Assembly (NCBI RefSeq): GCF_015169395.1
Contig: NZ_CP063458.1
Coordinates: 5,394,001 to 5,458,000 of the forward strand
Source of the DNA: Humisphaera borealis
Lineage (GTDB): Bacteria > Planctomycetota > Phycisphaerae > Tepidisphaerales > Tepidisphaeraceae
Length of the DNA stretch: 64,000 bases
Reading direction: 5' to 3'
The notes under the pieces were generated by a model, which did not search any database, had not been told where the DNA came from, and was given only the letters and a program-made list of their open reading frames with translations. Positions 49,843 through 52,722 of this stretch are shown here, piece after piece (the first letter of the stretch is position 1; each line of letters starts with the position of its first letter). Position numbers and translations under genes: made by a program.

Positions 49843-52599
49843 CTACTTGGCCGTTTTCCCGCCCGGCGGACCGGGGTCGGGCTCGAAACCGAAGGCGATG
49901 TCGGACTGCTCGTAGGCGTCCTCGGCGTAGGTCGCCGTGTCGTCGTCTTCCTGGATGACCCACTGGTCGTGGACGACAGACTCCTGGCCGACTTCGCCGG
50001 GCAGCGCCTCATACGGCGACTCGGGATTCGCGGCCTCGGCGGCCGGATGCCCGGCGACTTCCGCGGGGGCCAGGCCGGAAGGCTCGACTTCCGAGACTTC
50101 CGGATAAGGCTGGCCGTCGGCGTACTGTGCCTCAGGCGCGTGTGGTGATTCGACAGCGTATTGCGGCTCGGGATCGTACTGGCCCTGCTCGGCGGCTTCC
50201 GGCTGTTCGTAGCCTTCGACGGCTTGGTCGGCGTACTCGCCGGGGGCGGCGTAACCCTCTTCTGCGTAGCCTTCGGCCGGCTGTTCGTAGGCCGCCTCTT
50301 GCTGCTCCGGGGCTTCCGGCGGCGGGCCGCCGAGGGGTGCCTGAATCAGTTCTTCCAATGGCGCGATCATGTTGCCCAGATGGCCGTCTGCCAGCGGCAG
50401 ATGTGCCAGGGTCTCCGGCAGCGGCGGCAGGGCGCGGAGCGTGGGTGCCTTTCCCTTCCCCAGCCGTTTGGGGTCCTGCAACCGATAGCTGAGCTGCGCC
50501 GCCAGCGATTTAAGCCGTACCGTCGATACCCGCGCCGTCGTGGCACAGGTTTCCTGCAGCTTCATCTCCTCCTGGTACGACCGCGAGTACTTCGGCGGCA
50601 CGACCATGTTGCCGGTCTCGGTGTCCCGACCGGACTTGCTCATGATGTCGGCAACCTTCTTCTTCGACGCGGCGTGCTTCTGCTTGCAGTCGTTGATCGT
50701 CGCCACCAGTTGCGGGATCGTCGCCGAGCAGCGGTGGAGCAAAAAGTAGGTCGCCAGGCGTTCCTTCCAGGTGCTGAGCGCCGCCAGGTCGACGATGATG
50801 TGCCGCCACCGCCGGGCCGCACCGGCGAGTTCCTCCTCCATCGACTTTTTGACTTCCGGTCGCGACAGCACGCGGCAGACCTTGCCGGCCCAGCTTTGCG
50901 AATCGCCGTTGTACGCGGCGAACTTCTGCACCGTTTCGATCGTCGACCGCCGCAGGTATTCCAGCAGGACGACCAGGTCGTCGCAGCGGTCAGTCATCAG
51001 GAACTTGGTGGGGATCGTCCGCTTGACCGGCTGGCCGTGCTCGTCGACCTCGACTTCTTCATCCGGGCCGGGCGGCGGGGCGGGGAGCGCCACCAGCATG
51101 GCGCCGTTGGCGTTGGTCGTCAGGGGCTTGTCACGCTTGTGGTCCCACAGCTCGATCGTTTTGCCGGAATTGTTGCGAATGAGCAGTTCGCCGGCACCGA
51201 GATCGACCGATTGCTCAAACTGATACGGGCCGAACCGGCTGCCCTGTCGCTCGATGTAGTAGGCATGAATGCCTTCGGCGCCGTTCTGGCGGATCAATCG
51301 TTCGATCAGCCGGGCCTTCTCGGCCATGTCCATGTACTCGCGCCAGCGGACGGCGACTTCCAGCGCCGACGCCTCGCTGCCGGCGCGGTTGAGCACCGGC
51401 TCAAAGTCGGCGAGCGTGGCCGCCGCCTCTTTCTTCGCCCCGGCCGCGTCGGATTCGCCGGAATTGATCTCTCGATCCAGCCGCTTGCCCAGCATCGAGT
51501 CCGTCGGAATCAGCGACGGCGGCATCTGCTTTTCAACCGCTTCGACGGCCGACCGGATCGCCGCGAACTTCTTCTCGGCGTCGTCGATCATCTTCGGCAT
51601 CGAGAACTGCAACGGCTGCAGCTTGGCGGCGGGGGGGATTAGCTTGAGCGCGGCCATCGGCTCGTCCGGGTCGGCGGCAGGCACCAGGCCGGCCAGCTTG
51701 TCGATCTCACCGGTCAGCGGCGCTTTGGCTGCCGCTAGCGACTTGACCGCCTGCCGCAGCGCCGCGATCCGCCGGCGTCGTTCGCGGACGTAGTCGTACA
51801 GCGGCGACATCGACACCAGTTCCCGCGCCGCCTCGTCCAGGTCGCTCGCGACCGACTGCAAGTGCTCCGGAACGTCGTTCTCCATGAACAGGTTAAGCGC
51901 CAGACGGGTCTTATTGGCGTAATTCCGGAGTGTCAGCGGGTCGGGCGCCGAGTTGCCGAACAGGGATGACTGCGTCGCCAGGATCGACTGCTTCATCGAT
52001 TCCAGCGATTGCGGCCCGTACTTGCAGATGCGCTCCAGCGGCTCGCCGCCGGCCTGCGGCGACAGGTTCGCCTGTCCGTCGATCGGCAGGATGCTGTGGT
52101 TGGCGGTCAGCCATTCCATTGCCGCGGGGTTCACGGCGTAGTCGGGGTCGTAGCTTCGGTACGCCAGTACGTCGCCGACTTTGCGGATCAGCCCCAGCAG
52201 CGTTTCATTCGGGTGCCAGAGGCCCTCGAGGTAGAGCCCTTCGTACGACACGTTGGGATGGAAGATCGCGGTCATCGGCTTGACGACCGGCGCCTGGTTC
52301 GGAAAGCCCGGCGGCAGCGCGATCTGCACCGAAGCATTGGCGACGTACTCGAGCTGGCTCGTCCGCGGGTTGACGATGACCGTCGTCAAACGGAAGTCCA
52401 CCTGGTACGACGACGGCGGGTCACCTTCGAGGGGCGACAGCGTGACATGCGGGTGGTACGCGAACGCCCGCTGCAATCGCCGCCACTCGTTTTCCATCCG
52501 CGCCAGCTGGTCGGACGACCAGGTGACTTCGGCGTAGGGATCGCCTCCGACTTGGGGGGGAGTTTGACCGTAGGCGTCGTCCTGGGGGTTGTTCCACAT
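49843..52599 (-). CDS. Ubiquitin-conjugating-enzyme (E2)-like protein lacking the catalytic cysteine
   Basis: 918 residues. Residues about 35-168 have an E2/UBC-like layout: an N-terminal helix (RMENEWRRLQRAF), beta strands to ASVQIALPPGFPNQAPVV, then TAIFHPNVSYEGLYLEGLWH with the HPN signature (114-116), ETLLGLIRKVGDVLAYRSY and DYAVNPAAMEWL. In E2 enzymes the active-site Cys lies eight residues after HPN (HPN-x-x-x-x-G-x-I-C-L); here this is G-L-Y-L and no Cys occurs before about residue 193, so conjugation activity is unlikely. The rest is mostly helical (about 200-440) with a GIHAYYIERQGSRFGPYQF module, then an acidic Tyr-rich tail of about 150 residues. No E1, JAB or ubiquitin-like gene is nearby. 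Confidence 0.75.
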   Translation of the reverse strand: MWNNPQDDAYGQTPPQVGGDPYAEVTWSSDQLARMENEWRRLQRAFAYHPHVTLSPLEGDPPSSYQVDFRLTTVIVNPRTSQLEYVANASVQIALPPGFPNQAPVVKPMTAIFHPNVSYEGLYLEGLWHPNETLLGLIRKVGDVLAYRSYDPDYAVNPAAMEWLTANHSILPIDGQANLSPQAGGEPLERICKYGPQSLESMKQSILATQSSLFGNSAPDPLTLRNYANKTRLALNLFMENDVPEHLQSVASDLDEAARELVSMSPLYDYVRERRRRIAALRQAVKSLAAAKAPLTGEIDKLAGLVPAADPDEPMAALKLIPPAAKLQPLQFSMPKMIDDAEKKFAAIRSAVEAVEKQMPPSLIPTDSMLGKRLDREINSGESDAAGAKKEAAATLADFEPVLNRAGSEASALEVAVRWREYMDMAEKARLIERLIRQNGAEGIHAYYIERQGSRFGPYQFEQSVDLGAGELLIRNNSGKTIELWDHKRDKPLTTNANGAMLVALPAPPPGPDEEVEVDEHGQPVKRTIPTKFLMTDRCDDLVVLLEYLRRSTIETVQKFAAYNGDSQSWAGKVCRVLSRPEVKKSMEEELAGAARRWRHIIVDLAALSTWKERLATYFLLHRCSATIPQLVATINDCKQKHAASKKKVADIMSKSGRDTETGNMVVPPKYSRSYQEEMKLQETCATTARVSTVRLKSLAAQLSYRLQDPKRLGKGKAPTLRALPPLPETLAHLPLADGHLGNMIAPLEELIQAPLGGPPPEAPEQQEAAYEQPAEGYAEEGYAAPGEYADQAVEGYEQPEAAEQGQYDPEPQYAVESPHAPEAQYADGQPYPEVSEVEPSGLAPAEVAGHPAAEAANPESPYEALPGEVGQESVVHDQWVIQEDDDTATYAEDAYEQSDIAFGFEPDPGPPGGKTAK

Positions 52600-52722
52600 T
52601 CTGATGCTGCTGCCAGGGGAGGAAGGTTCGATGTCTCGTGCCCGGCGCTGCTTACGCCCGGCTTCTTGGACCGCATCGAGAGTATACCATCGATCGGCGA
52701 GGGGCGAAGACAGAGGTTTGCG

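Follow-up and report, generated by a model that had tools for sequence, protein, structure and literature searches.

Linkage choice and cargo reading in eukaryotic ubiquitin systems are provided by UEVs, which are usually viewed as a eukaryotic elaboration. The UEV domain of TSG101 binds ubiquitin non-covalently, and helix 1 serves both UEV-E2 and E1-E2 contacts in eukaryotes. RWD domains are often plain interaction or structural modules. The E2 fold is reportedly treated by Burroughs et al. 2008, and operons of the planctomycete RING/E2 type discussed below are said to have been described by Burroughs et al. (2011). Inactive E2-like domains have been found in bacterial ubiquitin-like (Ubl) operons (Iyer et al. 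2006, PMC1779556; restated in PMC11354881). The E2 of Bil systems carries a catalytic cysteine (BilB Cys138; PMC11354881).

The window, a stretch of 64,000 nucleotides from Humisphaera borealis, encodes a large protein, E2v, with a UBC domain that lacks this cysteine. Its features are as follows.

49843..52599, minus strand: E2-variant (E2v) gene, 918 aa (open reading frame, coding score; homologues L027/L128 and L028/L129)
52075..52521, minus strand: UBC (E2-fold) domain, residues 27-175 (Pfam UQ_con, PDB profile, AF2 model, fold searches)
52450..52521, minus strand: helix 1 and turn, residues 27-50, the most conserved part of the domain, with 15 of 24 positions invariant in three E2v (conservation, alignment)
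52198..52269, minus strand: HPN and former active-site loop, residues 111-134, with Tyr123 at the position of the catalytic Cys (alignment against Cys-containing E2s)
52012..52074, minus strand: conserved linker with SPxAGGEPLxRI, residues 176-196, 12 of 21 positions invariant (homologue comparison, conservation)
51280..52011, minus strand: region of long helices, bundle or coiled coil, at residues 197-440 (seen in the AF2 model of residues 175-755, for which no fold match was convincing)
50965..51279, minus strand: small beta-rich domain, residues 441-545, with an invariant RCDDL motif containing Cys539 (homologues, AF2 model, conservation)
50395..50964, minus strand: second long helical region, residues 546-735 (AF2 model)
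49846..50334, minus strand: acidic, probably disordered tail, residues 756-918, with 38 D/E and 2 K/R in 163 residues (composition)

The frame is intact from its ATG, and by codon use the coding signal is the strongest among the genes predicted in the window (score 316). Inspection of positions 52600-52640, upstream of the ATG, gave no clear Shine-Dalgarno sequence. Within the order, two further genomes encode near full-length homologues, of 857 aa in G002 (38% identity) and 827 aa in G011 (34%), and the start Met lies at the same place in both. Their public records (JAQGHP010000087.1 and JAQGHM010000291.1) are those of Phycisphaerales bacteria, as anticipated by a sequence-only reading that had placed the gene in a planctomycete. 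A frame or sequencing error that hides the cysteine was considered and rejected, as the three genomes agree and all frames are open.

The same reading had proposed an E2-like fold with a helix followed by four strands, and profile searches, structure prediction and fold searches all recover it. Residues 1-174 match UQ_con (PF00179) with an E-value of 9e-6, at 25.7 bits and hence just below the 27-bit cut-off. A PDB search with the single sequence finds Ubc13 (E 8e-4), and a profile of the three E2v sequences finds plant PEX4 (E 1.3e-7) and Ubc13 (about 2e-6), so that the profile searches assign the region to UQ_con and to E2s in the PDB. The AF2 model of residues 1-200, built on three sequences only (pLDDT 63, pTM 0.57), shows the E2 order of helix 29-46 and strands 52-59, 62-76, 83-94 and 105-108, and then the C-terminal helices. 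Structure prediction and Foldseek comparison, suggested earlier as a check, thus gave a UBC fold with matches to both E2s and UEVs: Foldseek aligned the modelled residues with E2 structures at E 4e-7, and a VIA fold search returned UBE2G1 (Z 12.2), UEV-1 (Z 11.0) and Mms2 (Z 10.8). By profile and UBC fold, E2v is a homologue within the ubiquitin-conjugating family UQ_con, and a UBC fold without the catalytic Cys is a mark that it shares with UEVs; for their other mark, a heterodimer with an active E2 or non-covalent ubiquitin/Ubl binding, the same genome offers a candidate E2 and a candidate Ubl.

HPN is retained at residues 114-116, where it had first been read. At the active site, the alignment shows HPNIDPTTICVGDHW in Cys-containing E2s of the family, HPNVSYEGLYLEGLW in E2v, and HPNVAWEGVYLTNPW and HPNVTMDGIGVNPGW in its homologues. 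The position of the catalytic Cys, seven residues past the Asn of HPN, is occupied in the three E2v by Tyr (Tyr123), Tyr and Gly. The absence of a Cys eight residues after HPN, as noted from the sequence alone, holds true, but the expected spacing does not: in homologous planctomycete E2s the Cys stands at N+7 (HPNIDPTTIC) and aligns with Tyr123. The first Cys of E2v is residue 192, in agreement with the remark that none precedes about residue 193. With no catalytic Cys within a few residues of HPN, E2v falls outside the active E2s. Furthermore, the active-site loops of the three sequences share no Ser, Thr, Cys or Lys, which makes thioester or oxyester chemistry there very unlikely. Judged by these residues, no Ubl thioester can form at the former active site of the E2v UBC domain.

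The UBC part is the best conserved large region of the protein, with 38% of positions invariant as against 16-18% in the helical parts. Constraint is distributed differently within it than in the Cys-containing E2s that these three genomes encode, where 75-80% of positions are invariant in the active-site region and alpha2/3 and 46% in helix 1. In the long E2v the corresponding values are 35-42% and 62%, a contrast that is modest (Fisher P 0.035, from three sequences each and columns that are not independent). Such a shift is what would be expected if catalysis had been lost and an interface at helix 1 retained.

Beyond the UBC domain, the AF2 model confirms the long helical middle that had been described (residues 197-440 and 546-735), and the acidic tail is equally evident from composition. 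Of the cysteines, only Cys539, in the RCDDL motif of the beta domain, is shared by all three E2v. Residues 175-755 have no significant match among PDB sequences, and searches of E2v against NCBIfam, PADLOC and PHROGs returned nothing useful. The fold matches of this part are all helical-bundle and spectrin-like (Z up to 11.5; best Foldseek E 0.047); being within the background for helical models, they were accepted neither as homology nor as proof of a new fold.

E2v is flanked by an esterase-like gene on one side and a sugar-binding-protein gene on the other, and the neighbours in the window, named by eye, are nagB-like, rfbC-like, esterase-like, sugar-binding-protein and helicase genes. These neighbours differ among all three genomes, and in none of them is E2v genetically linked to a Ubl operon. 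The earlier description of the gene as an orphan is therefore apt for its neighbourhood, but not genome-wide. The genome of the window (G000; 7.19 Mb, one contig) carries a complete Ubl-E1-JAB-FHA/RING-E2 operon about 325 kb from E2v, on the minus strand. The proposed genome search for ThiF, JAB and Ubl genes found all of them in this one operon together with a Cys-containing E2, and the distant conjugation system that had been surmised does exist. The genes (L024 10406-17223) are, in operon order:

C1:5777945-5778223, minus strand: Ubl, 92 aa, ending in EITAGSTV (weak match to the Ubl part of EccD, 7e-5)
minus strand: E1 (ThiF, 6e-52)
minus strand: JAB peptidase (8e-8)
minus strand: FHA protein without RING (operon member)
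minus strand: FHA and Prok-RING_1 protein (2e-5)
G000:C1 ~5771.4 kb, minus strand: E2 with zinc ribbon, UBC domain and Cys (UQ_con 2.5e-9)

This gene order recurs, with variations, in other planctomycetes, and the other two E2v genomes likewise encode a Ubl and an E1 of this type. Hydrophobic segments were seen by eye in the JAB, FHA and FHA/RING proteins, and from these segments the operon is suggested to be a membrane-associated system. G011, a MAG with 5% contamination, contains two E1s and two Ubls of the system (L029 3455-4105; C67, C227, C382, C386) and three E2-family proteins, namely an E2 with an N-terminal zinc ribbon, an E2 with a C-terminal zinc ribbon and the long E2v; from this gene content, it perhaps holds two parallel Ubl systems. 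A second type of planctomycete operon (L162 3727-6487, L163 3514-6368, L165 3727-6799) encodes a ThiF-like protein, a short Cys-containing E2-like protein with the motif HPNxxxPxxCLG, and a Ubl of about 95-100 aa that ends in DAG plus a tail.

The operon E2 of the same genome resembles E2v in its UBC domain, HPN, Trp at +12 from the Asn and AAMxW motif, with about 25% identity over the domain. It departs from E2v in its catalytic Cys (TICVGDHW), its operon location and its short length: it carries a zinc ribbon but not the 740 aa of helical, beta and acidic sequence that extend E2v. Eukaryotic UEVs (Mms2/UEV1; TSG101 UEV) share with E2v a UBC fold without the catalytic Cys, but E2v has a large extension of its own, and its sequence is closer to active E2s such as Ubc13. 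To our knowledge, UEVs also lack HPN, whereas E2v keeps it. Bil/Bub systems follow the same E1, E2, JAB and Ubl logic as the operon described here, yet we know of no FHA or RING-like proteins, both present in this operon, from Bil. The operon is not of the Bil/Bub type to which the sequence-only reading had pointed. E2v itself does not belong to Bil/Bub either, as it has no Cys, no E1, JAB or Ubl neighbours in the window and no PADLOC match. The inactive RWD-like E2s of poly-Ubl operons (type 6e, PMC1779556) are, like E2v, bacterial and without Cys. However, these lie in poly-Ubl operons or are fused to their genes, whereas E2v is unlinked and is found by ordinary E2 profiles; it is neither in nor fused within a poly-Ubl/E1/JAB operon, and does not belong to type 6e.

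The phylogenetic profile across Planctomycetota, also suggested earlier, shows the long E2v confined to one order and its wider family spread more broadly. Three of the 26 genomes of the order carry the long form, and searches of 397 genomes of the class and 392 of the phylum yielded no further case. A contig-database scan with the single E2v protein as query produced no match, and one with the E2v alignment and patterns retrieved just the two known homologues and no further species. E2s of the wider family are found in 39 of the 392 phylum genomes, and the E1 of the system in 28. Within the order, about 20 of the 26 genomes have such an E2, so the co-presence of E2v and the pathway is weak evidence for a link; with so high a base rate, it was not accepted as proof of one. 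Descent of E2v from the order's own operon E2 was considered: the tree groups E2v closer to the 'IAPHAIC' E2 clade, but its branch is very long (5.6 changes per site), and no exact parent E2 is named.

Short Cys-less E2-like proteins occur elsewhere in Planctomycetota (genus g298, G718 and G431). These belong to the same wider family as E2v, keep HPN and have the Cys replaced, but differ from E2v in their frames of 183-268 aa without a long helical region and in carrying Tyr, His or other residues at that position. The operon of G718 (L166 4456-9874; C2 ~132.4-137.9 kb) encodes a Cys-containing E2 (IVCLGGYGTHW), an E1, a JAB protein, a Cys-less E2-like paralogue that reads HPNISFAGFLEPVGIGIHW, and a RING-like protein. 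From its gene content this operon is a bacterial candidate E2/UEV pair, and one better suited to testing than E2v. In genus g298 of family f50 (G419, G526 and G579; 99-100% complete), the sole E2 is unlinked and combines a UBC domain with a zinc ribbon, and Tyr or His replaces the Cys (L098 9564-10238, L099 9677-10393, L100 9470-10186). The Ubl of the system was not found in the three g298 genomes, nor was its E1, the best E1 matches being general ThiF-like proteins with about 35% identity; another genus of f50, g320 (G567), has the full operon. Retention of a Cys-less E2 without E1 and Ubl indicates that such a protein need not serve conjugation. An E2-like frame of G431 on a short contig (L161 2873-3421, C187) reads HPNIRPPWISLQ, with no Cys at the usual position, and is perhaps a further independent loss. 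As both the replacing residues and the architectures differ, the Cys has probably been lost several times, and independently, among Planctomycetota E2s, although the long branches keep the tree from settling this.

A Cys-less UBC fold in a genome with a complete Ubl pathway makes E2v probably a non-catalytic helper or reader. The reading we prefer, to which we give an even chance, is that it would be a non-catalytic E2 variant, UEV-like in its working, that acts in trans on the Ubl pathway. In this view a long helical scaffold is fused to a UBC domain that has its relatives among the E2s of the planctomycete Ubl operon, and E2v would serve as a cofactor for a Cys-containing E2 or E2~Ubl, the putative docking partner. 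The docking surface is probably the unusually conserved helix 1, and positioning of the complex or choice of its clients would fall to the rods of helices, the beta domain and the acidic tail. By analogy, this role is supported by the precedent of the G718 pair in one operon. The UEV-like scaffold for a distant conjugation system proposed at the outset has held up as to fold, Cys loss and pathway; its role would follow from that analogy, and a tie between E2v and the operon is what we infer.

The same Cys-less UBC domain and modelled helices would also suit a Ubl reader or adaptor, in which the domain binds Ubl or Ubl-proteins non-covalently, the helices bridge to another machine and an active E2 is not the partner. 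A Ubl is present in all three E2v genomes, and inactive E2-like domains were proposed to bind Ubl moieties (Iyer et al. 2006, PMC1779556). However, the C-terminal part has no sequence or fold match to trafficking or adaptor proteins, and a Ubl-binding surface is not identifiable from three sequences; we consider this reading a serious rival but rather unlikely. We rate equally the possibility that the E2 fold has been exapted as a plain interaction or structural module of a large scaffold that no longer has any tie to Ubl conjugation. The isolated gene with different neighbours in each genome, the very long branch, and the g298 E2 kept with its zinc ribbon after E1 and Ubl were lost all fit such an exaptation, but every long-E2v genome keeps both the Ubl and the E1 of the pathway and the UBC domain is still the best conserved large region. 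The kept HPN and the invariance of Cys539 in RCDDL might hint at an unusual enzyme that still attaches a modifier by way of a different residue, for instance this Cys. This is very improbable, since Cys539 lies in a separate domain about 360 residues past the UBC domain and the former active site is Tyr/Tyr/Gly. Least credible is a decaying duplicate without function: the catalytic residue is lost and the gene is restricted to three genomes of the order, but frames of 827-918 codons remain intact in three divergent genomes, with a strong coding signal and clustered conservation.

What is new here is the architecture of E2v, its coexistence with a full pathway, and the repeated loss of the Cys in Planctomycetota; a literature search that did not include key subscription papers found no report describing a UEV-like protein built in this way, or a pairing of an E2 with a Cys-less E2-like protein in a single bacterial operon. 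The Cys-less E2 alongside a complete bacterial pathway, together with the G718 operon pair, makes bacterial use of the UEV trick directly testable, and g298, which kept an inactive E2 when E1 and Ubl were lost, offers a natural experiment on the E2 fold without conjugation. More tentatively, and with less confidence than in the UEV-like working of E2v itself, we suggest that Planctomycetota may have evolved UEV-type cofactors of their own, Cys-less E2 paralogues that direct a Ubl pathway either within the operon (G718) or as a giant scaffold in trans (E2v). If true, such proteins would parallel the Ubc13-Mms2 arrangement in bacteria and would have originated from the local E2 on more than one occasion.
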